Positions 7,395 to 57,715 of a DNA stretch of 64,000 nt are shown here, one piece after another. The position numbers and the translations under genes were made by a program. The stretch is from a virus. How positions within the stretch are numbered: position 1 is the first letter of the stretch; the number at the start of each line of letters is the position of its first letter. The notes under the pieces are model-generated. The model was not told where the DNA came from and searched no databases. It worked only from the letters and a program-made list of their open reading frames with translations. The stretch covers positions 1 to 64,000 of IMG/VR virus record IMGVR_UViG_3300042924_008490; one strand, given 5' to 3'.

Positions 7395-7538
7395 ATGGAA
7401 GAATATAAATTTCAAACAAAATATAATTGGATAATAATAACAATATGGTTAGTTATCTGCTGTATTTATATAGATTCTAAAAAATATGATAGAAAGAATA
7501 CAAATAAACCAACTGTGGAAACCCATACAAGAAAGTGA
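7395..7538 (+). CDS. Possible small single-pass membrane protein
   Basis: A 47-codon frame begins with an ATG nine bases after the dUTPase stop. It encodes a charged N-terminus, one hydrophobic span (WIIITIWLVICCIYI, residues 12-26) and a basic tail. The arrangement suits a small phage membrane protein. Its last 53 bases overlap the start of the next gene, more than is usual here, so it may be spurious. Confidence 0.35.
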   Translation: MEEYKFQTKYNWIIITIWLVICCIYIDSKKYDRKNTNKPTVETHTRK

Positions 7539-27053: not shown

Positions 27054-27069
27054 AAATTAAACAAATAAA

Positions 27070-27342
27070 ATGAAAACCTTAATAGAAAAATCAATAGAAA
27101 TATATGGGATGGGACATCCTCAAACAAAAACTGTCTTCAATATTGAAAAAGAAATAGAAAGAAAGGATTTGAGATTCAAATCTTTGACAACTATTTCAGG
27201 AAGAAAATTGACCGTTTGGTTCAAATATACTGAAAATGATATTGAATCAAATGATAAGCTTCCAATGACTGTTATCAAATCAGATAACGAAACTGAAATC
27301 AAAGATTTTATCCTAACACAAATAAACAATTATTTAAACTAA
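27070..27342 (+). CDS. Small protein between fibre genes
   Basis: 90 residues, alpha/beta, not recognised. An amphipathic N-terminal helix is followed by beta strands (SLTTISGRKLTVWFKY) and an acidic C-terminal helix. It lies 16 bases after fibre gene 1 and five bases before fibre gene 2 and has no promoter of its own, so it is made with the fibres. Fibre-assembly chaperones often sit beside fibre genes, but nothing in the sequence proves this role. Confidence 0.55.
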   Translation: MKTLIEKSIEIYGMGHPQTKTVFNIEKEIERKDLRFKSLTTISGRKLTVWFKYTENDIESNDKLPMTVIKSDNETEIKDFILTQINNYLN

Positions 27343-27347
27343 AAAAA

Positions 27348-29258
27348 ATGAAACCAAATAATTTTCCTTTAAGACCAAGTTTGGATGGAACTGAAGAACT
27401 TTATACGCAAACAGCCAACGTATCTCAAAAGTTTACTTTAGAAGAAGCTAAAAAATATGCAAATGCAATTGAAGTTACTTATGCTGAATTAAAAGATGAT
27501 TTAATTCCAAATCAAGCTTTAATAGCAGGCTCACATTACATTATAAATAATTTTAGAACATGTTACAATAGACCCGACTATGACCAAAATAAAAACAGCA
27601 TTATTGTTTCAGGTTCTACATATATTCAAGCAGCTATTGAACCAATAATAGTAATGGCTACAAGTTTTAATACATTTGCTATTGATGCATATCAACTGAA
27701 ATATCCTAATGATAGAATAAAATATGATATCAACTATTCTACAACTGAATCAGGAGATGTTGCATTTGGAAGAATAACTGAAAGAATCGATGAGTGGAAC
27801 AATCGTACAGATTATGACCATAGAACTATTGAATTCAAAAGATATAGATTTTATTACTTCAGTAGAGAAACTCCTGAAACAGGTACAATGGAATTATTAA
27901 ATGATGGAACTGTTAATGGTTTCGGTACGTTTTTTACAGCTCTTACTATAGGAGATGTTATTGCATATCCTAATTCAGATGAAGTATTTTTTATAATTGA
28001 TTCTATTTCATCAGATACGCTTATGTTAGTAAGCGGATTATCTATTAATTCCTTTGGTGGAAGCGGTGAATTTTATACTACTAACGCAGGAAGTTATGAC
28101 AGTTACTATAGAAGTAATGTTGATGACCCAACAGATTTTAATTTATATACCACATTCGGTGATGCAATTGGTGATGGCGTAATAAATAATTATATTGGAG
28201 ATTACAGTAATTTACACCTTGAAGATAATGAAGGTGATTTTCTTCTTGCAAATAATGTTTTCAAAGATGGGGAGTACAACAACAATAACATTGGTAATGG
28301 TTTTTATAACAATACTTTTAATGACGATTGTAACAATAATACAATAGGAAATTATTGTTATAACAATATTACTAATAATGATTTTGATGGAAATGTTATC
28401 GGAAATGGATTCACTAATAATCTAATTACAGCAGACTTTCAATATAACCATGTTGGTGAGGACTTTGCGAATAATACCATTATTAATACTGATTTTGATT
28501 TTAGAAATAACCGAATTGGCAACGATTTTACCAACAATTGGATAGATAGTAGTTCGACATATGATTTTGACCGTAATCAAATCGGTGATTCATTTGAAAA
28601 TAATACCATCTTTAGAAATTTTGAGGATAATACTATTGGCAATGGTTTCAATAACAATGAAATTTATCAAGATTTTTATGATAATAAAATTTCTAATGAT
28701 TTTAATAATAACACTATTGGTGATATTGAAGATATTGGTGCAGGAATTTTTGAAGATAACGTAATTGGAAATAATTTTAAAGGTAATTCAACATTAGGAC
28801 AATTTACACATAATCAAATAGGAAATGACTTTGTTTCAAATGGAACTGAAGATAGTTTTACTTATAATGTCATTGGAAATAACACTTTTTCTAATAACAT
28901 AGGAGAAAACTTTGGTTATAATCAAATTGCTAATATATTTAATAATAATACTATCGGAAATAATTTCGGTTATGGCGGAGCAAGTGGAAAAGGTAATAAA
29001 ATTGGAAATAACTTCCAAGGTAATACCATAGGTCAAGATTTCTATGATAATGTTATTACTAATAATTTTATAAATAATATAATAGTAGATGATTTTCAAT
29101 TTAATAATGTTACTGTTGTAATGAATGCAATAAACTTTTCAGGTGCAACACATGTTTATGGAAGTTATAACTGTACATTATTAAGAGGTAATGATAACAA
29201 TGATTATTTAGAATATTTTGATGGAACTACAAATCAATATGTTGCAGTAGATGCTTAA
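27348..29258 (+). CDS. Tail fibre-type protein with solenoid repeats (paralogue 2)
   Basis: 636 residues. N-terminus MKPNNFPLRPSLDGTEELYT and C-terminus (FSGATHVYGSYNC ... YLEYFDGTT) match paralogue 1. Residues 30-170 match paralogue 3 closely (AGSHYIINNFRTCYNRPDY and RITERIDEWNNRTDYDHRTI), while 170-280 are specific. Residues about 300-600 contain NxIGNxF repeats alternating in pairs, less regular than in paralogue 1. Seemingly shuffled from shared modules. Structural role in the fibre is inferred from repeats and end domains. Confidence 0.7.
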   Translation: MKPNNFPLRPSLDGTEELYTQTANVSQKFTLEEAKKYANAIEVTYAELKDDLIPNQALIAGSHYIINNFRTCYNRPDYDQNKNSIIVSGSTYIQAAIEPIIVMATSFNTFAIDAYQLKYPNDRIKYDINYSTTESGDVAFGRITERIDEWNNRTDYDHRTIEFKRYRFYYFSRETPETGTMELLNDGTVNGFGTFFTALTIGDVIAYPNSDEVFFIIDSISSDTLMLVSGLSINSFGGSGEFYTTNAGSYDSYYRSNVDDPTDFNLYTTFGDAIGDGVINNYIGDYSNLHLEDNEGDFLLANNVFKDGEYNNNNIGNGFYNNTFNDDCNNNTIGNYCYNNITNNDFDGNVIGNGFTNNLITADFQYNHVGEDFANNTIINTDFDFRNNRIGNDFTNNWIDSSSTYDFDRNQIGDSFENNTIFRNFEDNTIGNGFNNNEIYQDFYDNKISNDFNNNTIGDIEDIGAGIFEDNVIGNNFKGNSTLGQFTHNQIGNDFVSNGTEDSFTYNVIGNNTFSNNIGENFGYNQIANIFNNNTIGNNFGYGGASGKGNKIGNNFQGNTIGQDFYDNVITNNFINNIIVDDFQFNNVTVVMNAINFSGATHVYGSYNCTLLRGNDNNDYLEYFDGTTNQYVAVDA

Positions 29259-29285
29259 CAATTATAAAAATAAAAATCTAATAAA

Positions 29286-29531
29286 ATGAGAATATGTATT
29301 TTATGTGATGCTTCACGCATTGAAGAAGCAAGACAAAAAGAAGATAATAATAAAATTTTAACAATTGAGTTGTCACAATCAGGTGAAAAACCTGCAACAC
29401 ATTACTTCTGTACAATGGTTGTAGACCAAAAGAAAGCTGATAAACTTATGGCGAAAAGAGAATTTACTACTATGGAAATTTCTGAGCCTAAAGACTTTCT
29501 TGAAAAACACAATCTAAAAATGATTAAATAA
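29286..29531 (+). CDS. Small hypothetical protein after fibre 2
   Basis: 81 residues. MRICILCDASRIEEARQK at the start and HYFCTMVVDQKKADKLMA in the middle give a small alpha/beta protein with two spaced Cys. Not recognised. It lies 27 bases after fibre gene 2 and is closed by a terminator. It has no similarity I can see to the small gene after fibre 1. Confidence 0.55.
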   Translation: MRICILCDASRIEEARQKEDNNKILTIELSQSGEKPATHYFCTMVVDQKKADKLMAKREFTTMEISEPKDFLEKHNLKMIK

Positions 29532-29540
29532 AAATAACAA

Positions 29541-29576
29541 CAAAACCTCTGAAGAAATTCAGAGGTTTTGTTTTAT
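29541..29576 (+). terminator. Rho-independent terminator
   Basis: Twelve-base perfect stem CAAAACCTCTGA / TCAGAGGTTTTG with loop AGAAAT and a T-rich tail. Nearly the same hairpin recurs at 32289 and, with another loop, at 58545. Confidence 0.9.
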
Positions 29577-29581
29577 ACATA

Positions 29582-29589
29582 TATTTATA
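29582..29589 (+). promoter_or_regulatory. Late-promoter-like element TATTTATA
   Basis: ATATATTTATATAAAAAAAA, 23 bases before the ATG of fibre gene 3, directly after a terminator. Confidence 0.65.
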
Positions 29590-29604
29590 TAAAAAAAACA
29601 CACT

Positions 29605-32277
29605 ATGAAACCAAATAATTTTCCTACAAGACCAACTTTAAATGGTGCTGAAGAGATTTATACCCAAACAGGCGGTATATCTCAAAAGTTCACTTTGAAT
29701 TCGGCAAAAGCATTTGCAAATGCAATTGAAGTTACTTATGAAACATTAACAAAATTAATTGATAATTCAGCTTTAATTACAGGTTCACATTACATCATAA
29801 CAGATTTTAGAACTTGTTATGACCAACCTGATTATAATGCTAATGGAAATAGTACTAATGGTACTTATAAAGAAGCAGATATAGAGCCAATAATTGTTAT
29901 GGCTACATCAGAAAACACTCTTGCTCCTGATGCATATCAACCTAAATATCCTAATGATAAAATCAAATATGATGTTTTCTTTGATACAACTGAATCTACA
30001 AGTGGTGATGCCTATGGTAGAATTACTGAAAGAATTGATGAGTGGAACAATCGTACAGATTACGACCACAGAACAATTCTTTTCAAACGTTATAAAACTT
30101 ATTTTCATAATTTTGATAGTCCATTAACAGGTACTACAAGTACAACAGTATCAACTCCTACAACAGGAGGTTATGAAATTACTGTAGTAGGAATTGATAC
30201 AGACTTTATAAATGAGTTGATTGAAGGAGATGTTATTTATGTTGATAAATATTGGTACAAAGTTTTAACAATCAATTCAGCAACTGATATGGTAGTAACT
30301 TCTGTTGAAAATAAGAGTTTTAGCGGAGAAAAATATTATAAAGCAACCTCGCAAACTGAAGGTTCACTATCACAGATTCCTTATACTCACACTCAAATGA
30401 CTGACCCTCCTGTTGTTTATGATGAAGAAGCTTTAATTGGAGATTTTATTATGGATGGGCAAGTTAAAAGTGGTGTAAATTATTTTTGCGGAAGTATTGG
30501 TACTTCAGAATATTTTACAAACCTCTACGCAGGACTTTTCGTAATGGCTGCTAAAGACATCGAAATTGATTTCTTCCGAATCGATGGTAATATTGGAGCA
30601 GATGGAGATGGAACTGCAGACATTAATCAGTACACAACAAATGTAAATGGAAATGATTATACTGCTTTTATTAAAAGAGTGTATGATGCAGATGACCCTT
30701 CTATCAATCAAATATTTATTGTAAATGGTGATGGTACAGGTATTTCACAAACTTATGATTCTTCAACTACTGATGACTTTCATGAAATAAGTAACTTGGC
30801 AACAACAGGCGTAACTGAAATACATTACCTACTTACTTCAAGAGGAACAGGTGATAAACTTGAGGATGCAGATTTTGAAGCCTTAGTTGATGCTTACCTT
30901 AATTTAGTTGAAGGTGCAAATATTGCAAATACTTTAAATATACTTAATACTAACTATTCAACTTTAACAGCACTTGTACCTGACATTTATCTATTCAATG
31001 ATGTTGCAGATATAAATGATGAGGGAGAAAACACTATTGATGATGGCGGTGATGACATCTATGATGGAGCTAACTTTATTTATACAGATTTTTCTGTAAG
31101 ATATAGAAGTTACGAATATAAAAATAACAACATTATTGATGACGTATACAGAGAAATGACTACTTTCCGTTCTCAAGAAGAATTACAGTTAAATGACGAG
31201 GTAACTTCCACTAATAATTGGATTGGAGACTACTCTACTTTTTACATTCAAGGTAATTTAAGTAATAGTGACTTCCTTCTTGCAAACAATGTATTTGGTT
31301 TCAATTCTTATTCTAATAAATTAGGTGACAGATGTTTCAATAACTCTACTTACAATTGGTTCAACAGAAACCAAATCAGTGGTACTTTCCAAAACAATTC
31401 TTTAAGAAGAGGTTTTTATGCAAATGTAGTTGGAGAATATTTTACGGATAACGTATTTAATGGTGAAACTTGGAGAAATAAAATTGGAGAAAACTTTGAA
31501 AATAATGTTACAGGTACTGACGATTTTCAAAATAATGTAATTAATAATGGTTTTAATGATAATTATATCGCTCTTCGTGACGATTTCTATAAAAACTTCA
31601 TAGGCAATGGTTTTAATAACAATTGGATTTGGGATGAGTTCTATGGAAATCATATCGGTAATGCGTATAATGATAATGTAATCTATAATGTATTTGCCGA
31701 CAACCAAATTTTAGATTATTTTGACAATAATACAATTGGTAATTCGGATTTCATTGGAAGTTATGATTTTACTGATAATATTATTGGAAATGATTTTAAA
31801 AATAATCTTGCAGAAGGTAATTTTTTCAAAAACCATATTGGACATGACTTTGTTTCAAATGAAAGTGAAACAGAATTTAGAAACAATGTAATTGGAAATA
31901 ATTTTCTTGATAATAATGTTGGAGAAGATTTTGCTTATAATATAATTGGCGATAATTTCGGAAATAATACAATTGGAAATTCTTTTGGTTATGGTGGAAG
32001 TGTTCTAAGAGGAAATAAAATTGGTAATAGCTTTGCAAATAATACTATAGGTGTGGACTGTTATGATAATGTTATTGGTAATAATTTTTTTAATAATACT
32101 ATAGTTGATTATTTCAAATATAATCAAATTCTATATCCAATATCAGCAACTAACTTTTCAACAGCCACTCATGTTTATGCAGAGTATAATTGTACAGTAA
32201 TAAGAAGTAGTGATACTAATTATTATTTACAGTATTTTGATGGAACAGTTACCCAAACAGTTTCAATAACAGCTTAA
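29605..32277 (+). CDS. Tail fibre-type protein with solenoid repeats (paralogue 3)
   Basis: 890 residues, the longest of the three. N-terminus MKPNNFPTRPTLNGAEEIYT; residues 40-165 resemble paralogue 2; residues about 175-520 form a unique insert with a Ser/Thr/Gly-rich beta region and a globular part (GDGTGISQTYDSS; EIHYLLTSRGTGDKLED) that could be the binding head. Residues about 545-845 hold imperfect IGNxFxNN repeats; the last 40 residues (FSTATHVYAEYNC ... YLQYFDGT) match the other two. It has its own promoter element and terminator. Enzyme activity in the insert is not evident. Confidence 0.7.
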   Translation: MKPNNFPTRPTLNGAEEIYTQTGGISQKFTLNSAKAFANAIEVTYETLTKLIDNSALITGSHYIITDFRTCYDQPDYNANGNSTNGTYKEADIEPIIVMATSENTLAPDAYQPKYPNDKIKYDVFFDTTESTSGDAYGRITERIDEWNNRTDYDHRTILFKRYKTYFHNFDSPLTGTTSTTVSTPTTGGYEITVVGIDTDFINELIEGDVIYVDKYWYKVLTINSATDMVVTSVENKSFSGEKYYKATSQTEGSLSQIPYTHTQMTDPPVVYDEEALIGDFIMDGQVKSGVNYFCGSIGTSEYFTNLYAGLFVMAAKDIEIDFFRIDGNIGADGDGTADINQYTTNVNGNDYTAFIKRVYDADDPSINQIFIVNGDGTGISQTYDSSTTDDFHEISNLATTGVTEIHYLLTSRGTGDKLEDADFEALVDAYLNLVEGANIANTLNILNTNYSTLTALVPDIYLFNDVADINDEGENTIDDGGDDIYDGANFIYTDFSVRYRSYEYKNNNIIDDVYREMTTFRSQEELQLNDEVTSTNNWIGDYSTFYIQGNLSNSDFLLANNVFGFNSYSNKLGDRCFNNSTYNWFNRNQISGTFQNNSLRRGFYANVVGEYFTDNVFNGETWRNKIGENFENNVTGTDDFQNNVINNGFNDNYIALRDDFYKNFIGNGFNNNWIWDEFYGNHIGNAYNDNVIYNVFADNQILDYFDNNTIGNSDFIGSYDFTDNIIGNDFKNNLAEGNFFKNHIGHDFVSNESETEFRNNVIGNNFLDNNVGEDFAYNIIGDNFGNNTIGNSFGYGGSVLRGNKIGNSFANNTIGVDCYDNVIGNNFFNNTIVDYFKYNQILYPISATNFSTATHVYAEYNCTVIRSSDTNYYLQYFDGTVTQTVSITA

Positions 32278-35099: not shown

Positions 35100-36923
35100 C
35101 TATCTCAATTCACGAGTGTCGAATGTAGGAATGTTATCTACAACAACTCTTGCAAAATAATGATTGTTAATGTAAGCAGTAGCGTAGCGAGTAGTGATAC
35201 CTTTTACATTTGTGAAAGTATGAGGGTCAGTCAAAGTTGGAGTTAATTGAAGTGGTACATAAGGAGCATAGATGTATCCTGTGTCAAGGATAGAGCTACC
35301 TTTGTGACCAATCAAAATGTCACCTGCTTTTGCATATGGGTCAACATATACAGTGTAACGACCACTCAAAGTACCGATTCTACGCATACCCAAGTTGTAT
35401 TTGTCATCATCCACGTTACCGTTAGAAACCATGAAGTTTTCAAGGTCATCGAACAATGCAGAAACCTCAGTAGAAACTACGATAAAGTTAGCACCGCCAC
35501 GAAGAGTAGATTTGTGGATTTGAGCAGAAAGTTGGTTGATACGAGTGATAAGAGTTTGTTTCCACTCTTTCTCAGTGTATTTTTGAGAACCTTGATATTT
35601 CCATCCCAAGAAGTCCCAACGAAGAGTCCAAGCAGCACCACGCTTCAATTCACGAAGAATTTCACGGTCGATTTCCATAGCGATTTGCTCAGAAAGAAGA
35701 GCAGTAAGTTCTGCTTCAGCATCAATGTTATGATAAGCATTAACGTCTTGAGCAAGTTCAGGACTCCAACGAGCACGAAGTTTGCGAGGTTTAACAGTTA
35801 CGTTGATTTTCTCAATTGTAAATGTTACTTCACCCATTTCTGTTTCGTATTCAAGGTCATCATAACGTCTCCAAACGAAAGCGATATCTTCTGCAGCAAA
35901 AGTAGTACCTGATGCAGCACCGATGTAACCATCAAATGTAGGACAACCAACACAGTCAGGATTAGGTTGAGTCAAATCCAATTCAATGTAGAATGTACCA
36001 TTAGGGTCACACCAATCAGACCAATGTACAAGTCTTTGACCATATTTTTGAGCCACTGAACGGAAAGGAATAACATCACCTTCGTTGAAGATAACATTTC
36101 CGTTAGGGTCAAGAAGTGGAGCAACATTTGCCCAAATAACAGTGAAAGAAGCAAGGAATTCTTGGTTATCAATTTCAAGACCTTTTCCACCACGACCACC
36201 CAAACGAGCAGTGTGACCTTTAGAAGAAGAAAGATTGCTATTATCAAAACCTGTAACACCAAATTTAACGTGACGAAGTGAACCATCAGTTGCAATTGCA
36301 GGAGTGTAAGTTGTCCAACAACCGTTTACATCCAAAGAAACTGCTTCACCTGTAGCTGTAACAACAGTGAATTTACCTTTAGAGAAATCATATGTACCAT
36401 CATCATAGAAACGGTCATACAATGATTTGCAACCTGTGAAAGTGGTATCAGAACAGTTGTGACCGCTGATACATGCAGGAAGGTTAGCAATTTGTGAAGT
36501 ATGGCTTTGAACTTCATAACCTGTAATAGGGTCAACAGTTACAACTCTATCAGAAATCTGAGGATAGTAGAAGAACAATGTTCCTGAAGGATGTGTCATC
36601 GCTTGTACAGATACGATATCGTTAGCAAGCAATTTAGAGAAAATTCTGCGAATCATAGGAAACGCAACTGTTTCAAAAGAACCGCTTGAAGATGAATCAG
36701 TTTGCTCATTAAGAATCTTAGCTTGATTTTCGAAAAGCAAAGCGATATTGTCTTTTACGTGACCTTTAAGTCCACCAAGCCAATTCACACCTTCTTTAAG
36801 GACTTGACCTCTTTCGTTGATAACTCGACCAACGTTTTCATAACGCTCCGTAATTTCTTGACGAAGTGAGCGTTCTCTATTGGTAGTAATATTACCAAGT
36901 TTGTTAGAAGAAATAATACTCAT
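35100..36923 (-). CDS. Major capsid protein, T4 gp23-like (HK97 fold)
   Basis: 607 residues. Gp23-type signatures are FETVAFPMIRRIFSKLLAND (about 82-101) with VQAMTHPSGTLFFY after it, the spine-helix region QIAMEIDREILRELK, NFIVVSTEVSALF, and the C-terminal GDILIGHKGSS and YIYAPYVPLQLTPT. The N-terminal 70 residues are charged helix, with a likely prohead-protease site ILNE before QTDSSSSG (about residue 72), equivalent to the T4 propeptide cut. Codon use is the most GC-tolerant of the window (many GTA, CGA, ATC), as expected for the most expressed gene. No promoter element lies directly upstream, so it is probably transcribed from the scaffold promoter. Confidence 0.93.
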   Translation of the reverse strand: MSIISSNKLGNITTNRERSLRQEITERYENVGRVINERGQVLKEGVNWLGGLKGHVKDNIALLFENQAKILNEQTDSSSSGSFETVAFPMIRRIFSKLLANDIVSVQAMTHPSGTLFFYYPQISDRVVTVDPITGYEVQSHTSQIANLPACISGHNCSDTTFTGCKSLYDRFYDDGTYDFSKGKFTVVTATGEAVSLDVNGCWTTYTPAIATDGSLRHVKFGVTGFDNSNLSSSKGHTARLGGRGGKGLEIDNQEFLASFTVIWANVAPLLDPNGNVIFNEGDVIPFRSVAQKYGQRLVHWSDWCDPNGTFYIELDLTQPNPDCVGCPTFDGYIGAASGTTFAAEDIAFVWRRYDDLEYETEMGEVTFTIEKINVTVKPRKLRARWSPELAQDVNAYHNIDAEAELTALLSEQIAMEIDREILRELKRGAAWTLRWDFLGWKYQGSQKYTEKEWKQTLITRINQLSAQIHKSTLRGGANFIVVSTEVSALFDDLENFMVSNGNVDDDKYNLGMRRIGTLSGRYTVYVDPYAKAGDILIGHKGSSILDTGYIYAPYVPLQLTPTLTDPHTFTNVKGITTRYATAYINNHYFARVVVDNIPTFDTRELR

Positions 36924-38389: not shown

Positions 38390-40246
38390 CTAAAATTTAT
38401 CAAGAAAACTATTGAATACATTGTTTATTTTATCGACTTTTTGTGGACTTCTACCCTTTAACATATAATCCCACATATCTCCATTCTTTTTATGTTTATT
38501 AAAATCTGCTTCAACATCATAACCTTTTACATCTAAACTTTCTTTAAAAGGTTCTGCTTTACTTTTATCTGAGAATACCCAAGAACCATTTGTACTTGGA
38601 GTGGTAACAAAGTCCCAACAAATCAATTCAAAATCATCTTGAACAATATTCTTTCCTCCTTTTGATTCTAAACTGCCTACACCACGACTTGAAACTCCAT
38701 ATTGGAAACCATGCATAATGTCATGAGCAACTTTATCCGCAGGATGAGAAATCACACCTGTTTCGATATATCCTTTGGTTATTGGCAAATAAATTTCACC
38801 CATCAAGTTTCTTCCTTCCCACCAAAGATTTGTTACTCTCATTGAAACCTCTTTAATTGAAATAATTGCACTATTTCCTGACCAATGAGTTTTTCCATTT
38901 TGTCTTGCAAAAAAAGTATGATTTGGAACATTTACACAATAAACATTACCTTCATAATCGAATTCTTCAACGTTTAGAAAATCTTTGTTTAGAAAAATGC
39001 CATTACAGTTAGATATATTTAAATTATAAATATCATTTGAATTACATGCTTTAATTACACGCACATTACCATTCTCATTAATTAATCTATCTTTTTCAGT
39101 TCTTTTATCTATAGTAATATTACCTGATTTTCCAATTTTCAATAAGACTTCTTGAAAATCTTCCATTAATCTTTTTGAAGTTGAAAAAATAGATTTTTGT
39201 TTACCATTTCTTATTCTACCATCACCCAAATGAAACCATTCAAATAAAGCATTTAAAGCTTCAAAAGACATATTTTTTATTTCTTCAGGAATATATTTAT
39301 TTTTTGCAACACCTAAAGGTTTTAAAAAATTATATAATCTTGCATCAATAATTTCAAAAACAAAACCTCCAATTTTTCTTTCACGTTTATGATAGTGAAA
39401 ATTTAAAGATTTTAATAGATTATCTATTTTTTCTACATTATCAAGTTTATTTTGATATATAGATATTTTATACGAATTTTTTGATGTTGAACAACAACCT
39501 TCAGCTAAATAAATACCCATAAACGAAGCAAATAAAACCTCGTCTAAAACTAAATCTTTAAATTGCTTTTTATAAAATACTTTAGAAACTCTCGAATGAA
39601 AATTTTTAATTTTAGAAATTGTAAAGACTCCATTTTTACCTAATTCAAAATTTCTTGCCCTTTTAGGTATAAAATGTTTAGACATATCAGTTATTGTTCC
39701 ATCAAAAATTTCTTGTGCAGTGATAAATTTTTGATTTCTTTTTCTATCGTATACAGGAAATTTATGATTAGGTGTAACTTCACAATCAATATTCAACCCC
39801 TTTAGACGAATCATTTTTCCTTTATAAGGTTGAACTATTTTTTTATTAATTTTTTCAACAGAAATCGAACCATCTAATTTTAACGTATAAACAGATTCAT
39901 TTCCTTTTAAATCTTTAAAAAATTTCCAACCTTCAGTTGTTAAAATTTCAGCTCCTTCACTATAGCAATCAGGATGGTCAGTATGACCTGCTGATGCACC
40001 CATTTCAACTAATTTCATATAATTATCAGCTTCCCTTTTAAGCAATGCTTCAGGATAAATACGACCGTTTTTATTTTCAACTCCGTATTTTTGCATAACT
40101 CCATATAACTTAGTGCGAACAATTCCTTTTTCAGAACCTTCTTTCATTTCCCTAAGAAAATGAGTATTATCACTTGGGCTAATAAAGCCTGCATCATATT
40201 CAATTAAAAGACCATAACCTGTCTTACCTTTAGAAAGTGGTTTCAT
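38390..40246 (-). CDS. Prohead protease (T4 gp21-like) interrupted by an intein
   Basis: 618 residues as encoded; 253 after splicing. Extein parts: residues 1-93, with KNGRIYPEALLKREADNY and GHTDHPD, and residues 459-618, starting SAIISIKEVSMRVTNLWWEG and containing the catalytic-Ser region YGVSSRGVGSL (about 518-528). Joined, GHTDHPD-SAI restores the conserved catalytic-His motif of this serine protease family (S77-like), which matures the head by cutting after [LI]xE. The intein occupies residues 94-458 (separate entry). Without splicing the active site is split by 365 residues, so head maturation should depend on splicing. It lies upstream of the scaffold and capsid genes as in T4. Confidence 0.9.
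   Translation of the reverse strand: MKPLSKGKTGYGLLIEYDAGFISPSDNTHFLREMKEGSEKGIVRTKLYGVMQKYGVENKNGRIYPEALLKREADNYMKLVEMGASAGHTDHPDCYSEGAEILTTEGWKFFKDLKGNESVYTLKLDGSISVEKINKKIVQPYKGKMIRLKGLNIDCEVTPNHKFPVYDRKRNQKFITAQEIFDGTITDMSKHFIPKRARNFELGKNGVFTISKIKNFHSRVSKVFYKKQFKDLVLDEVLFASFMGIYLAEGCCSTSKNSYKISIYQNKLDNVEKIDNLLKSLNFHYHKRERKIGGFVFEIIDARLYNFLKPLGVAKNKYIPEEIKNMSFEALNALFEWFHLGDGRIRNGKQKSIFSTSKRLMEDFQEVLLKIGKSGNITIDKRTEKDRLINENGNVRVIKACNSNDIYNLNISNCNGIFLNKDFLNVEEFDYEGNVYCVNVPNHTFFARQNGKTHWSGNSAIISIKEVSMRVTNLWWEGRNLMGEIYLPITKGYIETGVISHPADKVAHDIMHGFQYGVSSRGVGSLESKGGKNIVQDDFELICWDFVTTPSTNGSWVFSDKSKAEPFKESLDVKGYDVEADFNKHKKNGDMWDYMLKGRSPQKVDKINNVFNSFLDKF
38873..39967 (-). other. Intein with LAGLIDADG homing endonuclease in the prohead protease
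   Basis: 365 residues. Cys1 begins CYSEGAEILTTEGWKFFKDL (block A); GLNIDCEVTPNHKFPVY is block B with TxxH; NVYCVNVPNHTFFARQNGK is block F; the end is THWSGN before Ser+1. Penultimate Gly replaces the usual His, as in several phage inteins of the W-S/T-G-N type. The central region has two LAGLIDADG motifs, FMGIYLAEGCC and FEWFHLGDGRI, both with their acidic residue, so the homing endonuclease may be active. Insertion is between Asp93 and Ser of the catalytic HPDS motif. Confidence 0.9.
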
Positions 40247-42293: not shown

Positions 42294-44813
42294 TTATTTC
42301 ATTTTTTTCATTATTTCTAAAATTCTTTCCAATTCATCATCACTCTCCATGATTAATTTGTCTTTCTTATTGTTTATAAAAGATTCTGCTGTAGGTTCAG
42401 GTGTAGCTTCTTCCGCAGGGGGTGCTTCAGGTGCTGTTGCTTCAGGTGCTGTTGCTTCAGGTGCTGTTGCTTCAGGTGCTGTTGCTTCAGCTCCTCCGCC
42501 CATATCAGCTCCTCCACCACCCATCTCCAAAGCTCCTGTTGGAGTGAAGTTGCCTCCACCACCACCACCGCCCATGTCAGAGCTTACAGTTTCTCCTGTT
42601 GGAGCAGCAGGGGCATCGCCTGTAGCTTCTATTCCATATAATTTTAATATGCCATCAAAAAGGGTTGAAGATTTGACCTTTGTTGCAGCAGTTTTCATTT
42701 CTTCAGCTGCTACAGATTCCATAAATTGCTGTTCAAGATTCAATTTAATTTCATCATCAGTCATACCTAATATTCTTTTCATAGCCATAGTTACAGATAA
42801 AGCAGAAATACCTTTTCCTGCATCTGCAACTGCATCTTTGAAAGAATTTATTTTGGCTGCAAATTGCTCGGTTCTCATCACCTCAGCTTGAACTGAAGGA
42901 TTATTCAAAGACAATTCAAAATTATGCAATTCATCATCTAACCCTAAAAGTGTCAAATGAACCATTGCTATTTTATTTAATTCTTGAAGAGCTGCTTGCT
43001 GAATACGATTTATTTTTCTTGCGAAACGAACATCCGCCATAGCTAAATTCTTTCCTTCACCTGCAGCAGCATCATATTGCAAAAATGGTTTAGGAATACC
43101 AAGAGCAGCAAATAATTGATTCAAATCGTATTCAATATCCGCAATTTGGTCAATATTGGATGCACCTGCCAACGTATCAATTTTTGTACCTTCATTTGCA
43201 TCTCTTATAGGAATGAAATAATCTTGGTCATACCCCATTACGTTATATTTCAAATCCTCTTGACCTGTATATTCATCAATATGTCTTTTACGCTTAAATC
43301 TACTTGCAATATCCTCAATATAAGCTTGAACATCATTAGGGTCAATATTACCTACATTTATATAATAAACTCTTCTATCAATTGCTCTCAAAAGTCTTAT
43401 AGTTCTCATAGCATCTTCCACAAGAAGCAAGTTTTTCCATATTCTTCTTGCCTTTTCTAAAACAGAAACTCCATAAGGAAGTCTTCTATCATCTATAAGA
43501 AGCCTGAAATGTGCAATCTGCCAATATTTGAACTCAGCAATATCTGTTGATTTCCAACGGAAAATTACTTCATCCTCATGATTTTTTAATGTAGCTTTAT
43601 TTCTTGCATTTGTAGTCCCTTCAACTCTTTCAACTTCAATATTAGCCAATTGTCTTGTTCCTACAATGCCCATTTCATCGTCAATCTGCAAATAAACAAA
43701 ATTATCACCATACTTACAATTTGCCACGAAAACCCCATTCCTACTATAATTTCCATGCTCATCTCTTGAACAAATAGCGAAATTATGCCTATCATGCTCA
43801 CCGTTAGGGCCAAGCACTTCCATGCAATATACATCATCTAATTCATCTAATTCAACAACAGAAACTACTTTGTGATTTACTAATTTTCCGTTTGAAATAG
43901 ATAAACTACCTTTTCTCAATTTAATTAATCCACTATTTAAGAGATTTTCTGAAAGAATTCTATGTGTCAACTTATAATCATTAGTTTTAGGATTATATAC
44001 TCTTTCAGCTTTATTTACTAATCGACTTTTATTACTTCCTTCCTTAGTGTAAAAAGGCATTAAGCTATCACCAACATTTAAATTTTCTGCAGCTTTATAC
44101 GAACCATTCCTCATCATATATTGATGGTCAGGTGTGGTATCAGTATACGTACCATCATCAAAAGTAACTCTATAAATTTTAGAATTCTTTCTTGTTAAGT
44201 CGCACCAAACAATTTTACTTGGAACAATGTCATTTGTACCTTCTTGTACAGAATATGTCCATATCTCTTCGCCTGACTTCACTTTTTGTGAAAGTTCTTC
44301 GATAGAAATTGTTGAACCATCTAACAAGGGTATCATACTGTTTTTTCGGACAGGCAGATTTCGTATCCACATTGGAAGTACGGTATGAATATTTAACCTA
44401 TTGTAAAACAACTCTTTAAGTTCATCTTGAACTCTTTTACTTTCAGAATAAATATTTAAAATCTTACCTTCTGCATTTACAGTTGTACATTCTTCCATCA
44501 AAATATCTAAAGCTTGACCTATAATTGGATAATATTCCATTAAGTCATAATCTAAGTACGCAGGATATCTCTGAGTTTCATATAACAAAGATTTCTCTTG
44601 AATATGAGTTTTAACTTTCTGCCATTGCCCACTTAAAAATTTAGTCTGTTGCTTTTCAAGCTTCTTTGTTTCATAATCCTTTTTATCCTTAGTAGTATAA
44701 ATAGTTTTATTAGGATTCTGTGCTGTTGCTTTATCATCAACATAAGGATTATCCTTCAAAAAGCTTTGGGTTAACTTTTTATATTTTGTTATTATAGGCT
44801 GATTCCCTTCCAT
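42294..44813 (-). CDS. Portal protein (T4 gp20-like) interrupted by a mini-intein
   Basis: 839 residues as encoded; 627 after removal of residues 154-365. Portal features: RYPAYLDYDLMEYYPIIGQALDIL (82-105), ELFYNRLNIHTVLPMWIRNL (134-153) joining CKYGDNFVYLQIDD (366-379), VLEKARRIWKNLLLVEDAM, the RRVYYINVGNI strand, and PKPFLQYDAAAGEGKNLA. The dodecameric portal is the DNA gate and the nucleus for head assembly. The C-terminus has a low-complexity EATAP repeat, then AESFINNKKDKLIMESDDELERIL, again with [IL]xE sites. It lies 27 bases after the terminase gene, as in T4. Confidence 0.92.
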   Translation of the reverse strand: MEGNQPIITKYKKLTQSFLKDNPYVDDKATAQNPNKTIYTTKDKKDYETKKLEKQQTKFLSGQWQKVKTHIQEKSLLYETQRYPAYLDYDLMEYYPIIGQALDILMEECTTVNAEGKILNIYSESKRVQDELKELFYNRLNIHTVLPMWIRNLPVRKNSMIPLLDGSTISIEELSQKVKSGEEIWTYSVQEGTNDIVPSKIVWCDLTRKNSKIYRVTFDDGTYTDTTPDHQYMMRNGSYKAAENLNVGDSLMPFYTKEGSNKSRLVNKAERVYNPKTNDYKLTHRILSENLLNSGLIKLRKGSLSISNGKLVNHKVVSVVELDELDDVYCMEVLGPNGEHDRHNFAICSRDEHGNYSRNGVFVANCKYGDNFVYLQIDDEMGIVGTRQLANIEVERVEGTTNARNKATLKNHEDEVIFRWKSTDIAEFKYWQIAHFRLLIDDRRLPYGVSVLEKARRIWKNLLLVEDAMRTIRLLRAIDRRVYYINVGNIDPNDVQAYIEDIASRFKRKRHIDEYTGQEDLKYNVMGYDQDYFIPIRDANEGTKIDTLAGASNIDQIADIEYDLNQLFAALGIPKPFLQYDAAAGEGKNLAMADVRFARKINRIQQAALQELNKIAMVHLTLLGLDDELHNFELSLNNPSVQAEVMRTEQFAAKINSFKDAVADAGKGISALSVTMAMKRILGMTDDEIKLNLEQQFMESVAAEEMKTAATKVKSSTLFDGILKLYGIEATGDAPAAPTGETVSSDMGGGGGGGNFTPTGALEMGGGGADMGGGAEATAPEATAPEATAPEATAPEAPPAEEATPEPTAESFINNKKDKLIMESDDELERILEIMKKMK
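42424..42492 (-). repeat. 15-bp repeat encoding EATAP in the portal C-terminus
   Basis: Four exact 15-base copies plus a partial one encode Ala-Pro-Glu-Ala-Thr units in a probably disordered tail. Confidence 0.85.
43719..44354 (-). other. Mini-intein in the portal protein, position 1 probably Pro
   Basis: 212 residues between Leu153 and Cys366. Block A is PVRKNSMIPLLDGSTISIEEL with DG at positions 12-13, the normal spacing from residue 1; block B is VTFDDGTYTDTTPDHQYMM with TxxH; VGDSLMPFY follows; block F is DDVYCMEVLGPNGEHDRHNF; block G is RNGVFVAN before Cys+1. No homing endonuclease. Position 1 is Pro rather than Cys or Ser, while block F has Cys in VYC. This resembles class 3 inteins, which use a block F Cys, but the class 3 Trp and Thr partners are not evident. 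Penultimate Ala replaces His. Start at Ser159 is a less likely alternative. Confidence 0.82.
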
Positions 44814-46701: not shown

Positions 46702-47049
46702 TTAATCTACTCTGTAATAACGTTTTTTGTTTTTAGATTCCTTTACCATTGCATTAGCAGCTTCTTGAGTATTCATTTCTACATATTCTTTAAGATTTGC
46801 GTTGGATGGTTTAAAATTAGAAATAACATTATACATTTCTCGAACATCTTTCATTGGTGGAGAATCTTTCTTGATTTTCATTTTCTTTAAAATTTCTTGT
46901 AATTTCATTAAATCTTTTGAAATCTTATCAACCATTTCATCACATTCCATATGAGGTTCTTTTGGAGCTTTTGAAGATTTTTCTTCATTCTCCTTCAAAT
47001 AAGCTTTTTTAATCGCTTGTTCTATCAGTAGATTGTTTTTCTTTTCCAT
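46702..47049 (-). CDS. Small tagged helical protein
   Basis: 115 residues. The N-terminus KNNLLIEQAIKKAYLKENEE contains LIE and LKE sites in an amphipathic helix. A long helix (DKISKDLMKLQEILKKMKI, about 41-59) follows; the tail is basic and aromatic (KNKKRYYRVD). Not recognised. It overlaps the preceding gene by 41 bases; a start at Met34 would remove the overlap but also the tag. Position next to the large terminase invites comparison with a small terminase, but no DNA-binding motif is visible. Confidence 0.5.
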   Translation of the reverse strand: MEKKNNLLIEQAIKKAYLKENEEKSSKAPKEPHMECDEMVDKISKDLMKLQEILKKMKIKKDSPPMKDVREMYNVISNFKPSNANLKEYVEMNTQEAANAMVKESKNKKRYYRVD

Positions 47050-47425
47050 ATATTTTTTCTATAAATAAATCTTTTTCGTATAATTTTGATTTCACGCTAT
47101 CTAAAGTTTCACCGAATTTAAAAAATAATCTTTTATCAAAAATAGATTCGTCTTTTTCAGCTTCCCATGCTATTGCAATGATTCCTTGTTTACAATCGCT
47201 CATATCAAATGAAACATGATTCTGTATTAATTCAAATTCATTTTCAGTTTCTAATTTATATGCCTGCTCTACAAAATCAATAGGAGGTCTTGGATTTCCA
47301 TTTGCAGGATAAGAATCCCAATCTTCACCTGTAACATTACTTAAATCTTCAGAAGAAAATAAAAATTCATATAAATTATCACCTCTAAAATTGCTTCCTA
47401 CAAAATTTACAAAAACTAATTTCAT
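47009..47425 (-). CDS. Conserved T4-like phage protein of unknown function
   Basis: 138 residues. The sequence KLVFVNFVGSNFRGDNLYEFLFS (2-24), then DWDSYPANGNPRPP (35-48) and GIIAIAWEAEKDE with LFFKFGETLDSVKSKLYEKD, matches my memory of a small protein conserved in T4-like phages and without known function. Compact alpha/beta protein. Its ATG overlaps the stop of the -1-frame extension of the upstream gene (ATGA), which supports that extension being translated. Confidence 0.65.
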   Translation of the reverse strand: MKLVFVNFVGSNFRGDNLYEFLFSSEDLSNVTGEDWDSYPANGNPRPPIDFVEQAYKLETENEFELIQNHVSFDMSDCKQGIIAIAWEAEKDESIFDKRLFFKFGETLDSVKSKLYEKDLFIEKIYGKEKQSTDRTSD

Positions 47426-47601
47426 GTGTTAAACATTTTGAACTTATTAGGACTGACCTTCAAATAATAATCATCATCTCCATACTCTCTCCCAATTATT
47501 GTCCCATCAGGAGCTCTTGTCAAACTTTTTTTATTCTTAGGAACAGGAACTTTTTCAGTGAAAACTCCATCATATTTCGGAGGAACTACTTTTTTTTTTG
47601 A
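47422..47601 (-). CDS. C-terminal extension in the -1 frame, reached through an A10 run
   Basis: Immediately downstream of the 532-residue gene, the -1 frame is open from 47601 to a TGA at 47424-47422. It encodes VVPPKYDGVFTEKVPVPK through YYLKVSPNKFKMFNT, with normal codon use. It has no ATG or GTG near its start; its only ATG is four codons from the end. The two frames meet at ten A residues (T run at 47590-47599). A single -1 slip gives a 587-residue protein whose stop overlaps the next ATG, the coupling used throughout this genome. Confidence 0.6.
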   Translation of the reverse strand, partial: SKKKVVPPKYDGVFTEKVPVPKNKKSLTRAPDGTIIGREYGDDDYYLKVSPNKFKMFNT

Positions 47602-49184
47602 CTATAATCCATTTCAAAAGTAAAATCATCTTCCATCAAATCTTCATCTTCATTCATCATATATTCATCTTCATTCATCATATATTCATCTTCATTCATC
47701 ATATATTCTTCTTCAGACATCATATATTCATCTTCATTCATCATATATTCTTCTTCAGACATCATATATTCTTCTTCAGACATCATATAAGCTTCATATA
47801 CATCTTCTTCAGACATATATTCTTTATCCAAAAGAAGTTTATCTTTCTTTTTCCCTTCATCAAATTTAAAATTATCTTCAGCCATATAATCTGCTTCCAT
47901 AGGCATTCCATAATCGCTACCTTCTTTCAAAGATTTTTTACCTTTAGATTTTTTTCCTTTCACATAGGTAACAGAACTATCTTTCCCTTGACTTCTTTCA
48001 TGTTCAAGAAATGCAGCGATAGCCATTTCTCTTCTTTTCTTTTTAGATTTCCCTTTGAATTTAGGATTTTTTGAATCCATAAAATCTTTAATCCAAGCAC
48101 TGATAGGTTTTCCTTTCAAACCTTCATTCATAGGCATTTCTACAGATTCTTCCTTTTTGCCTTTACGCAACATTTTCAAATCTATTGGAGTGATTTTGTT
48201 ATCACCATTTTTATCAAAATGTATTTTTTGCGACTTAGATAATCCTGCTTTAGCTTTTTTGATTCTTTTCAAAGCTTCAGCCAAAGTTTTTTCCATTCCT
48301 TCTTCAGGCATTGGTTCAGCACCTTCTTCATCTGCAGGCATTTCTTCACTTTCTTCAGGCATTTCCTCAGTTTCATCTTCAGGAAGTGTATCTTCCTCAT
48401 CAACTGTCAAGCTTTTTTCGACTTTATTCTTGATAGCCTTTTTATCCTTTTCAGTAATTTTATCCGCATCTGCAGCAGATATAACCATTGAAGTTGCAAA
48501 TTTATATATATCGCTATAATCTTCGTCTTCACCTTCAAATTCTCTTAATTCATAAGCCAACTTACCTGCGAGTTTTTGAATAGATTTCTTAGGGTCTACA
48601 CCCGATTCTTCATCTTCATCACCTTCTTCAGGCATTGGTTCAGCACCTTCTTCACCTGCAGGCATCGGAGGCATATCTGTTGGCATCTCTTCAGCAGGAG
48701 CATCCATAGGAGCATCCATAGGAGCAGTTGCATCAGGCGCAGGAGCTGCCATATCCATAGGAGGCATATCCATTGCAGGTGCAGCACTTTTTTTAGCAGG
48801 AACTTTTAATACAGTCTTTTTTGTAGGCTCTTCATCTTCAGGCATTTCTTCTTGCTCTTTAATCAAAGAAGTGCCATAAACACGACTGAATTCAATATTC
48901 CAAAGATTCAAAGTTCTTTCTGCTTCCAACAAAGTATTTTTTGAATATTTTGATTTGTTTTGAACTCCATCAATATATGCAAAATCATTCGGATTTTTAG
49001 CATTCTTAACAACTGCTTCTTTGATAATATATTTTGTTCCTTCTTTTACGATGCCATAACGTTTTCCATTATATGCAGAAAAAGTTTTTTCTACATTAGA
49101 AAAAGAATCCACTTTCTGTGAAACATTAAGAGATTCCATCATTTTGTTAGCTTTTTCTAAAGCATCATTTCCTTTTAATATCAT
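47586..49184 (-). CDS. Acidic multi-module virion protein with EF-hand-like motif, ending at an A10 run
   Basis: 532 residues in the zero frame. N-terminal domain (1-110): YGIVKEGTKYIIKEAVVKN and RTLNLWNIEFSRVYGTSLIKE. A Pro/Met/Ala/Asp-rich acidic region follows (115-300). HFDKNGDNKITPIDLKML (about 325-342) fits an EF-hand/dockerin calcium loop. KGKPISAWIKDFMDSKNPKF with KKKRREMAIAAFLEHERSQG (about 360-400) is a basic module common in phage virion proteins. The end has seven units of YMM(S/N)E(E/D)E. [LIM]xE sites (MNE, LKE, MAE) separate the parts, so proteolytic processing is likely. The unit starts at 49863. Confidence 0.65.
   Translation of the reverse strand: MILKGNDALEKANKMMESLNVSQKVDSFSNVEKTFSAYNGKRYGIVKEGTKYIIKEAVVKNAKNPNDFAYIDGVQNKSKYSKNTLLEAERTLNLWNIEFSRVYGTSLIKEQEEMPEDEEPTKKTVLKVPAKKSAAPAMDMPPMDMAAPAPDATAPMDAPMDAPAEEMPTDMPPMPAGEEGAEPMPEEGDEDEESGVDPKKSIQKLAGKLAYELREFEGEDEDYSDIYKFATSMVISAADADKITEKDKKAIKNKVEKSLTVDEEDTLPEDETEEMPEESEEMPADEEGAEPMPEEGMEKTLAEALKRIKKAKAGLSKSQKIHFDKNGDNKITPIDLKMLRKGKKEESVEMPMNEGLKGKPISAWIKDFMDSKNPKFKGKSKKKRREMAIAAFLEHERSQGKDSSVTYVKGKKSKGKKSLKEGSDYGMPMEADYMAEDNFKFDEGKKKDKLLLDKEYMSEEDVYEAYMMSEEEYMMSEEEYMMNEDEYMMSEEEYMMNEDEYMMNEDEYMMNEDEDLMEDDFTFEMDYSQKKK
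47590..47599 (-). other. A10 slippery homopolymer (candidate -1 frameshift or slippage site)
   Basis: On the coding strand C-A10-G: reading CAA AAA AAA AAG TAG in frame 0, or AAA GTA GTT after a -1 slip. Ribosomal -1 slippage, polymerase slippage on the A run, or a one-base assembly error would each join the frames. Confidence 0.6.
47641..47793 (-). repeat. 21-bp repeat encoding acidic heptads
   Basis: Seven in-frame units of 21 bases encode YMMSEEE or YMMNEDE. The two variants are interspersed, which points to repeated duplication and conversion. Confidence 0.85.
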
Positions 49185-54415: not shown

Positions 54416-57400
54416 TTAATCTAAAGTCAATCCGAACATTCTTTTGTAGTTTTCAGAAAAAGTTTCTTCTGTTACAGTGCTTGTTCTATTAAACATTGTA
54501 TTAACCAAATCAGTAACACTACTTTTCTTTTCAGTTGAAGCACTTGCAGTTCCACTTACTTGACTCATAGTATTCCATATATTTTGCATTTGAGTAAACA
54601 TGTCTGCTTTAGGGGTATTACTGTTCAGTAATTTTTCAACTTGTGCTTTAATTGTAGCATCTTTTATTCCATTTTTAGCTAATGTTTTTGCTTCAGCTTT
54701 TTTATCAGCTTTTATTAGGGCTAAAATAATATTTACTACTGTTTTTACTGTAATAGTACCTGTTGTTGGTTCTGCTTCAATACCTTCTTCTGCACTATTT
54801 ATGGCAGCTTTAGTTGCAGGCCCGTACTTTCCATCTACACCTGCACCTCCAAGGTCTTTACCTAATGATTGCAATGCTGTTTGAACTGCGGTAACTTCAT
54901 CTTTTACTGTATATTCACCTGATTCGCCTTCGTAGCCTGCAAGTTCAACGTCTAAATTTATACCTGCAAGTGCTTCTGCTAAATTAGGATAAGCTTCTGC
55001 AGGAAGTTTAGACATATCAAAAGAAGCACTACCATCTGCTCCAAATGCAAAAGCTTGTAAAAACATTGAACCATGCTTATAAGCGGAAGGTTGAGCTAAT
55101 ATTTTCATTACATAAGATTTCATCCAAGGAGCTTTCATAGCAGTATTTACAAAATCTAATGTATTAATTTGTTGTGCTCCATTTTTAGTAAGTATATGTA
55201 CATAATCATTTCCTATTGCCTTTACAGTAGCCTTTTCACCATTAATCATTACTTTAGTTCCTACTTTAACTTTTAATGCTTTTAATAATGCTTGTTCAGA
55301 ACCTGAAACAATTCTTAATACATTTTTACCCGAAGCAATATTTATAACAGACTCAAAAAACCCTGTAAAACCTTTTTTTGCAACTAAAATTTCAGCTTTA
55401 GTACCCAATTTAACCGCATTCATACCAAGTTTTTCAGTAACTTTTGCACTCGCTGCACCTGCTCTTGTCACAATTCCTTGTAACCATTTTTTAACCATTT
55501 CATATGCAGCTCTTATACCTGTAGTAATAGCAGTCCATCTTTTTGCACCCAAAATCCATTTAACCCATCCGTATGATACAAATTTAAGTATACTTTTAAC
55601 TATATATCCTCCATATGTAACAAGAGCTTGTAAAGCTTCACTCACCAATCTGAAAGTAGTAGAACTCACTTTTGCAGCAGTAGTAGCAGTTTTTGCTGCT
55701 GCTATTGCACCCCTCCATGTAGCTGCAACTATACCAATTACTTGAGGTAAAAGTGCAGATGCGATGTCTAAAATACCATTCCAATACCTTTCAGCTTTCA
55801 TTGCATCACCGCCTTCAGTAAAATAAGACCTAAGAAAATACACCATACCATTTAAGAAAAGCGGGCCGTTTCCTATTCCTGGAAAAATAATCGAAACAAC
55901 ACTCACGCCTGCTTGAAGATAATCAATCCAATTCCAACCTTCTACTATTAAATTTTCAACTAATACTCTATTTTTTACTTTTTTCCCTGTATTAACATAA
56001 TATATCTCATTTTCAATCATCATATATTTCTTGCAATAAGATATTTTAAATCCTTTTCTACCAAAAACACTTTCATAAAGTCCTTTATCAATACCTTGAG
56101 TACTCTCTTCACCTTCTAAGGAACTAATTTTTTTTTTTCCATAAGGAATTTCACTCAATCCTGTGTCAAATTTATATTTCTTATAAGGGTTTGATGAATA
56201 ATCCATAGGAACTTCATACATATTTTCATCATCCATTGAAGGTCTTTTCATTCCCATTGAATAACCTTTCATTCCCATTGAAGGTCTTTCCATAGGCATA
56301 GAACCTTTTCCAAGCATACGAAGTAAAGCAAAATCTTTAGGAGAACTTAACTCCACTTCGATATATGAATCCTCATCAGTATCACCACATTCCATGCATG
56401 ATTCTTCTTCTAATGGATTGTATCTTTCTTCATCTTCATAATCTCTTTTATATGCATCATATTGACGTGCCTCATAATCTTCTTGACTCTCTTCATCTCC
56501 TTCATCTGAATCAAAACCTTCATAACCTTTTTCACCTTTCAAAGAACCATAAGGAGGTTCTTCAGGGTCTTCTTTAGGATTCATCATTTCTTTCAATTCC
56601 TCATAAACAGGTTTCATGTTTCCTTCAGACATATTCTGATAAGCTTCATAAACTTGACACATTTTTTCAGTGATATCCATTGATTGACCACCTTCCATTT
56701 GAGTTTCATAAGCTTCCTTTTGGATTTCAACCATCTTTTGAACCATTTCCATAGGAACATCCAAAGCTTCTGCAGTCATTGCAACAGCTTCATTTGTGGT
56801 TTTTTTCATTGATTTCATTTCATTGAAAGTTTTTTTGATTTCATTAACCATCATTTCACTTTCATGCATCAATCCGCTATAACCTTCATAAATTTCTGAC
56901 ATTTCTTCAGCGACATTTTCTGTAAGATATTTGCGAAGTTTCAATTGATATGGAGTTCTATCATTTTTGATAATATTTTTGATATTTTTGGCATGGCTTT
57001 CAAACAAACCTTTTTCATTTGCAATTCTATCTACAAATTTCAAATTGTGATATTCAGTTTTGCCTTTCATGTTTTCAACAATGTTAGCGATGAAATCAAC
57101 CATTTCTTCCTCATTCAATTGAGTAAAACCATCTCCGAGACCGAATCCTCCATTTTTATCAAGTTTGCGATTGTATATAGAATTGGTATTAACGTTAGAT
57201 TTGAATCTCGTTTCACTGCCAAATCCTTGACCGAGAGTAAATCCACCTTTTGATTCATTCAATCTTCTTTTGAGGTTTCCAACTGTTGTTTGTTTTAATA
57301 TTTTCATTTCTTTTTTATTTTCATATAACTGTCCTTTGAATGATTTTAATCCTTCAGAAAATTGCTCATAAAAATTCTCAAAAAAATCTAAAAATTCAAC

Positions 57401-57715
57401 AAGGTTTTCTCGATTTTCTTCTCTCCATCGCTCATGCCAATAATTATTCTTGGTATAAAGAAGTTCATTTTCAGCATTTCTAATAATAGATTGAAAAACA
57501 TCCTTTCTTTCGGATTTGGTTTTTTTTGCAAGTGTATCATAGTATTGTAAAGAAGATTGATAATCATAAAATGACCTCTTATCTAATTTAAAATTTTTTT
57601 TGAATCTTTGATATCTATTAATATTGTCATTAAGCAATCTTATAGTATCTTTATCCAATCCATTAAGAAAACTATCCGCTTCTTTAATTAATTTGTCAAA
57701 ATAAGATAAATCCAT
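54416..57715 (-). CDS. Giant multi-module virion protein with hydrophobic core and peptidoglycan-binding domain
   Basis: 1099 residues. The tag-like start is MDLSYFDKLIKEADSFL. Residues 1-150: helical. 150-200: two FGLGDGF-type Gly motifs flanked by LNE sites. 205-390: acidic/Met-rich helices. 390-520: Asp/Glu/Tyr-rich with CMECGD. About 600-790: strongly hydrophobic Ala/Ile-rich helices (AGVSVVSIIFPGIGNGPLFL, ASALLPQVIGIVAATWRGAI). About 945-990: peptidoglycan-binding repeat VQTALQSLGKDLG with VDGKYGPATKAAI. The mix of cleavage sites, membrane-active stretch and wall-binding domain suits a protein ejected with DNA to cross the envelope, or a tape-measure-like part; both are inference. An A11 run at 56128-56138 is read in frame. 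Confidence 0.6.
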   Translation of the reverse strand: MDLSYFDKLIKEADSFLNGLDKDTIRLLNDNINRYQRFKKNFKLDKRSFYDYQSSLQYYDTLAKKTKSERKDVFQSIIRNAENELLYTKNNYWHERWREENRENLVEFLDFFENFYEQFSEGLKSFKGQLYENKKEMKILKQTTVGNLKRRLNESKGGFTLGQGFGSETRFKSNVNTNSIYNRKLDKNGGFGLGDGFTQLNEEEMVDFIANIVENMKGKTEYHNLKFVDRIANEKGLFESHAKNIKNIIKNDRTPYQLKLRKYLTENVAEEMSEIYEGYSGLMHESEMMVNEIKKTFNEMKSMKKTTNEAVAMTAEALDVPMEMVQKMVEIQKEAYETQMEGGQSMDITEKMCQVYEAYQNMSEGNMKPVYEELKEMMNPKEDPEEPPYGSLKGEKGYEGFDSDEGDEESQEDYEARQYDAYKRDYEDEERYNPLEEESCMECGDTDEDSYIEVELSSPKDFALLRMLGKGSMPMERPSMGMKGYSMGMKRPSMDDENMYEVPMDYSSNPYKKYKFDTGLSEIPYGKKKISSLEGEESTQGIDKGLYESVFGRKGFKISYCKKYMMIENEIYYVNTGKKVKNRVLVENLIVEGWNWIDYLQAGVSVVSIIFPGIGNGPLFLNGMVYFLRSYFTEGGDAMKAERYWNGILDIASALLPQVIGIVAATWRGAIAAAKTATTAAKVSSTTFRLVSEALQALVTYGGYIVKSILKFVSYGWVKWILGAKRWTAITTGIRAAYEMVKKWLQGIVTRAGAASAKVTEKLGMNAVKLGTKAEILVAKKGFTGFFESVINIASGKNVLRIVSGSEQALLKALKVKVGTKVMINGEKATVKAIGNDYVHILTKNGAQQINTLDFVNTAMKAPWMKSYVMKILAQPSAYKHGSMFLQAFAFGADGSASFDMSKLPAEAYPNLAEALAGINLDVELAGYEGESGEYTVKDEVTAVQTALQSLGKDLGGAGVDGKYGPATKAAINSAEEGIEAEPTTGTITVKTVVNIILALIKADKKAEAKTLAKNGIKDATIKAQVEKLLNSNTPKADMFTQMQNIWNTMSQVSGTASASTEKKSSVTDLVNTMFNRTSTVTEETFSENYKRMFGLTLD

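Follow-up and report, generated by a model that had tools for sequence, protein, structure and literature searches.

A poly-A run as a probable transcriptional slippage site in a gene of a T4-like phage and its relatives

Close to the packaging genes of a T4-like phage, an ORF of 532 codons ends directly after a run of ten A's (A10), and a -1 frame without a conserved start codon stays open from the run to the next gene. Is one protein made here in two lengths, and is the run the site of recoding? The locus lies in a 64,000-nucleotide stretch of DNA (the window) from a T4-like phage contig of 29% GC, whose virus record has 125,583 bases. Its features are as follows.

49184..47586, minus strand: zero-frame ORF (short form, 532 aa), ending AGT CAA AAA AAA AAG TAG
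48867..49169, minus strand: N-terminal domain (GKxYGIVKEGTKYIIK...DFxYIxG), AF2 pLDDT 84
48788..48794, minus strand: A7 run just after VLKVPA, likely the remnant of an inner slip site; the relative L008 has an in-frame A10 near here
48399..48611, minus strand: mid domain (DPKKxIQKLAGKLAYELR...), three helices predicted with low confidence
47590-47599, minus strand: A10, the putative slip run (T10 on the plus strand)
47595-47589, minus strand: A_AAA_AAG heptamer overlapping the end of A10, read directly; a possible ribosomal -1 site
47586..47588, minus strand: zero-frame stop codon TAG, directly after A10 and its G
47422..47589, minus strand: -1 frame extension, 55 codons and TGA, no conserved start, dN/dS about 0.15
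47009..47425, minus strand: next gene, 138 aa; its ATG at 47425 overlaps the TGA of the extension
35103-36923: major capsid protein, PF07068 (Gp23-type), a gene separate from the slip gene

The 532-residue protein is acidic and rich in Met and Pro, and repeats of the MMSEEEY/MMNEDEY type precede A10. An earlier note on this DNA had described the gene and its -1 extension, and both were located on the minus strand; the zero frame ends C-A10-G-TAG, as had been claimed. The extension (VVPPKYDG...KMFNT) runs from GTA at 47589 to TGA at 47424-47422, where the overlap with the ATG at 47425 was confirmed. It has 55 sense codons instead of the 54 first counted, while the total of 587 residues (532+55) stands. 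The claim that it lacks a usable start also holds, the sole start-like codon before the last few residues being a TTG at codon 23. Runs of nine or more A or T occur eight times in the 64-kb window. A first-order Markov model puts the chance of a 55-codon open stretch at P about 0.03; since this is weak evidence alone, conservation in relatives decides.

The earlier note had also proposed an alignment with homologues, and these too are split at an A run. A contig from another metagenome (L001) is identical to the window except for 1 of 5,305 nt and has the same A10. A divergent IMG/VR contig (L002), 65% identical in the best protein segment, also has A10. In a sister group (L005, L006, and L009), whose terminase is 75% identical, there is an A9 in different flanks. 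The zero frame stops two or three codons past this A9, and the extension is present, 65% identical, in the -1 frame, with its TGA again overlapping an ATG. The main alternative had been that sequencing or assembly had miscounted the homopolymer by one base and that the gene is in truth continuous. Homopolymers are indeed error-prone and a one-base change would join the frames. However, the same break is found in L001 and L002, and in the sister group at a run with different flanks. At an inner position of the gene, described below, five contigs of different metagenomes, identical over 9 kb, carry the same A10, and the run with its break recurs in 37 rough clusters. The homologues with the same break lead me to reject an error, which is exceedingly improbable.

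How has the extension been maintained? Between the window and L002 it shows 10 synonymous and 5 non-synonymous codon differences, a dN/dS of 0.148, and 2/2/13 differences by codon position. Between the window and L005 the dN/dS is 0.145, with 12/10/30 differences. Third codon positions change most, and the extension is under purifying selection in the -1 frame. In two outgroups, L010 and L008, a counterpart of the extension is in frame (...SPKNK...VGRIDGDDD and ...IGRYDGDD, respectively). Against shuffles, the L010 counterpart gave P 0.001 from the window and <0.0005 from L005, and the L008 counterpart 0.02 and <0.0005. A start codon common to the window group and the L005 group was not found, and a search for the extension in genome contigs gave no match. 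Taken together, the conservation, the selection, and the in-frame counterparts indicate that the extension is probably a genuine translated C-terminus.

Two other explanations meet the same data. In one, the -1 ORF is a small gene in its own right, translated either from a non-AUG start or by ribosomes that re-initiate past the TAG, an arrangement that would suit the tight gene packing with overlapping stops and starts and might use the TTG at codon 23. This TTG is absent from the sister group and, like the GTG that L005 has close to the run, is not common to both groups. Moreover, conservation sets in immediately behind the run, and L008 and L010 have the counterpart as an in-frame part of the gene; I give a separate gene almost no credence. 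In the other, the locus is a decaying frameshift mutation, or replication slippage toggles the tail by phase variation. Long A runs are mutable, and the length is A9 or A10 depending on the lineage. However, the extension stays under purifying selection, length variants are absent among near-identical contigs, and no in-frame member was found in the group with the C-terminal A10 or A9. Decay or phase variation is therefore very unlikely, and the homologues support recoding that would give 532- and 587-residue forms, as the earlier note had suggested.

The phenomenon extends beyond what that note had covered, to a second position and to a wider gene family. Relatives of the N-terminal domain occur in at least 383 IMG/VR stretches. 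A terminase search followed by a search for the N-terminal domain yielded 113 loci with the domain, some of them duplicates. The mid domain (DPKKxIQxLxGKL in relatives) lies beyond an inner slip junction. At 24 distinct loci the N-terminal and mid domains are in different frames, always -1; the sequence between them has A9 or A10 at 22 of the 24, A7 at one (L175), and no run at one (L176, which has its own ATG). A conserved motif, S-L-(S/T/N)-E-...-(V/Y)-L-K-V, begins directly after the run, and before any ATG in most loci. Eight further loci with A10 (L048, L067, L072, L080, L081, L082, L144, and L154) have the +1 frame open; they form one separate clade of only three rough clusters. Contigs with A9 that are related to this clade are in the -1 frame and share its flanks (AIDNAIAEAFxRL before the run and PTKLxIPNSDP after it). 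Continuous genes with an in-frame A9 or A10 near the same place were found in L078, L124 (four near-copies), L114, L094, and L008, where the run is slightly further downstream; all five have early stops in both other frames. Across the junction loci the downstream frame is -1 in most and +1 in eight. When near relatives are collapsed, 52 junction loci fall into 37 clusters, a rough count from metagenomic contigs, and 36 of these have A9 or A10, L175 being the exception. The remaining continuous members, 34 of 63 tabulated loci including the group of the window, lack a run of nine in the stretch that joins the domains.

Some loci stand apart. L175 has, around position 7500, an A7 with a -1 ORF of 208 codons and is a possible ribosomal-shift member. 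An A9 at a third, C-terminal position was seen in L169 (around 5068, with a -1 extension of 235 codons) and, in frame, in L107 (around 2711) and L147 (around 6053). L150, L161, and L168 were discarded as slip loci, having A runs at a stop codon but no downstream ORF. Antisense T-run shifts in the first pipeline output mirror the same runs and were ignored.

Which mechanism accounts for these loci? I consider it probable that A10 is a programmed transcriptional slippage site producing two forms of one protein, and that this is a family-wide trait. RNA polymerase at A10 would produce mRNAs with A10 and A11, or other lengths. The unslipped mRNA would give the 532-residue protein, while one extra A, or two fewer, would give a form of about 587 residues with a 55-residue C-terminal tail, whose stop codon would overlap the next gene's start. 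Two forms in a set ratio would be a trait of the wider family. In most split relatives the slip site would separate the N-terminal domain from the mid domain and a variable C-terminal part; in the lineage of the window the inner site would be degenerate and the C-terminal site used. I infer the slippage in the RNA, the product ratio, and the function from sequence. Bacterial RNA polymerase slips efficiently at about nine A's, though the polymerase of the host may differ, and the resulting mRNAs have several lengths (PMC5009743, PMC1088944). With several mRNA lengths, any frame downstream of the run can be read. Three sequence features expected of slippage are found here: at least about nine A/T at the break, conserved coding in the shifted frame, and homologues in any frame.

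The earlier note had left -1 ribosomal frameshifting beside polymerase slippage. In such a case the long form would arise by a shift of the ribosome at A_AAA_AAG just ahead of the TAG, as happens in E. coli dnaX, and the long run would be incidental. The heptamer is present and the zero-frame stop follows at once. The frame is -1 in most relatives, with A_AAA_AAA or A_AAA_AAG inside their runs. The A7 of L175 is short for slippage, and the shift of the window itself is -1. However, eight relatives require +1, several in-frame relatives still keep A9 or A10, and seven A's would be sufficient, yet nine or ten are kept; a conserved -1 direction is thus not seen across the family. As for a stimulator, no downstream RNA structure was found above shuffles (z 0.72, -0.97, 0.53, and 0.31; folded without pseudoknots). 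A Shine-Dalgarno (SD) stimulator is not expected, SD-like motifs being present at 1 of 50 starts. The near-constant run length, the free frame (-1, +1, or 0 behind A9 or A10), and the lack of a stimulatory structure in these folds favor slippage, and a ribosomal mechanism is unlikely, while a ribosomal contribution at the window's own site is possible.

When did the C-terminal site arise? In the terminase tree, one supported group comprises the window, L002, L005, L006, L007, L009, L008, and L010, and the lineages around it have the inner slip site. Its outermost member is L010, followed by L008, and the inner order is not fully resolved in this tree, which was made with a quick method and has some long branches. 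At the inner position the window has A7 where L008 has A10, which is most simply read as loss of the inner site in the lineage of the window and gain of the C-terminal one.

Known instances of programmed transcriptional slippage come from RNA viruses, IS elements, and a small number of bacterial genes. Thermus thermophilus dnaX (A9) likewise has nine or ten A's and two protein lengths, and its logic, a long standard product and a short slipped one, fits the in-frame relatives L078 and L124. In contrast, the standard reading in the window gives the short form, the gene belongs to a phage, and the frame after the run varies among relatives. Short and C-terminally extended forms of a phage gene are also made from the capsid genes of phages T7 (10A/10B) and T3, and the extension of T7 gene 10 is about 50 residues. 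However, those result from a ribosomal -1 shift in the major capsid gene, whereas the capsid is here encoded by another gene. Split dnaX genes of Chlorobi and others have A7-A10, mostly A10 (GeneTack study, PMC3711429); there too the zero-frame stop follows the poly-A and the longer form needs slippage, while the gene is a non-homologous, cellular replication gene. In the slippage of Shigella spa13/mxiE, the end of the C-terminal extension of spa13 overlaps the start of the next gene, spa32 (PMC5009743), as in the window, although these are type III secretion genes with unrelated proteins. In the literature searched, I found no conserved slippage in a tailed-phage gene. The nearest case is the methyltransferase of Campylobacter phage CPt10, broken at a poly-A, for which slippage was suggested (PMC2853527); it differs in being a single case, with conservation not shown.

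This unnamed phage gene family may serve as a natural experiment: frames of -1, +1, and 0 behind a near-constant run separate polymerase slippage from ribosomal shifting without bench work. Gene callers that expect single ORFs would miss the tail of the long form or report this form as two hypothetical proteins with no relation to each other. The slip site would also offer a testable handle on an uncharacterised gene beside the packaging genes.

What might the protein do? Pfam and PHROGs gave no convincing match for the slip protein or the 138-aa protein; the N-terminal domain belongs to no Pfam family and has only weak PHROGs matches. Its model has no relative in the PDB, and all its BFVD matches are uncharacterised proteins of viruses (best A0A8S5L9J2, 542 aa, E 1.2e-6); the poor model of the mid domain had no matches in a structure search. 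Among cultured phages, tblastn of the slip protein, of the N-domain ORFs of four relatives, and of the next gene found no match. ORF2 of L014 matched cultured phages only partially, in modules common to cyano-, pelagi-, and Methylophilales phages. No homologue upstream of the terminase was detected in the Flavobacterium phage immuto. The nearest terminase is that of Flavobacterium phages (29%), which together with the rare SD-like motifs hints at a host in Bacteroidota.

Two small genes, the large terminase, and a Gp20-type portal (PF07230) lie directly downstream of the slip gene; farther along are a Peptidase_S77 prohead protease and the Gp23-type capsid gene. Many relatives have kept the 138-aa gene, a short distance ahead of the terminase. 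The repeats of the slip protein recall an acidic 458-aa protein encoded beside the capsid gene. Most likely the protein functions in the head or in head assembly, in two lengths, and the "acidic virion protein" of the earlier note is plausible from the sequence and its neighbors. After the inner site, (L/I/V)xE occurs in 30 of 32 representatives against a background of 14%, a contrast whose P value is inflated by their shared descent. The cleavage site of T4 gp21 and its relatives lies behind a Glu within a short motif; LIE agrees with the logo for T4 (PMC9026906). The phage encodes an S77-family protease (PF03420, E 1e-13), which together with the motif tentatively suggests head proteins that undergo processing in the prohead. 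In the 55-residue tail of the window no such motif is apparent. By analogy with Shigella spa13/spa32, the expression of the 138-aa gene could also be coupled to slippage via the TGA/ATG overlap. A broader scheme is offered tentatively, with a modest chance of being right: in a widespread family of T4-like phages, a head-assembly gene would hold a dedicated poly-A slippage module that is indifferent to frame, slippage would dose a fusion of an N-terminal head-targeting domain with cargo domains, the prohead protease would cut at (L/I/V)xE just past the junction, and the module would be mobile within the gene, as in the lineage of the window.

Other features of the window were noted. The portal protein (42294-44813) and the prohead protease (38390-40246) contain inteins, that of the protease with a LAGLIDADG domain. 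Three paralogous genes at 24966-32277 have dense repeats of the NNTIGNNF type and are perhaps tail-fibre-like. The in-frame A11 that had been reported at 56128-56138 is present, at codon 525 of a 1099-aa gene (57715..54416, minus strand), and both alternative frames stop within a few codons. Since the homologues in the L005, L008, and L010 contigs match residues 1-465 only, slippage at A11 could possibly yield a truncated product of this gene as well.
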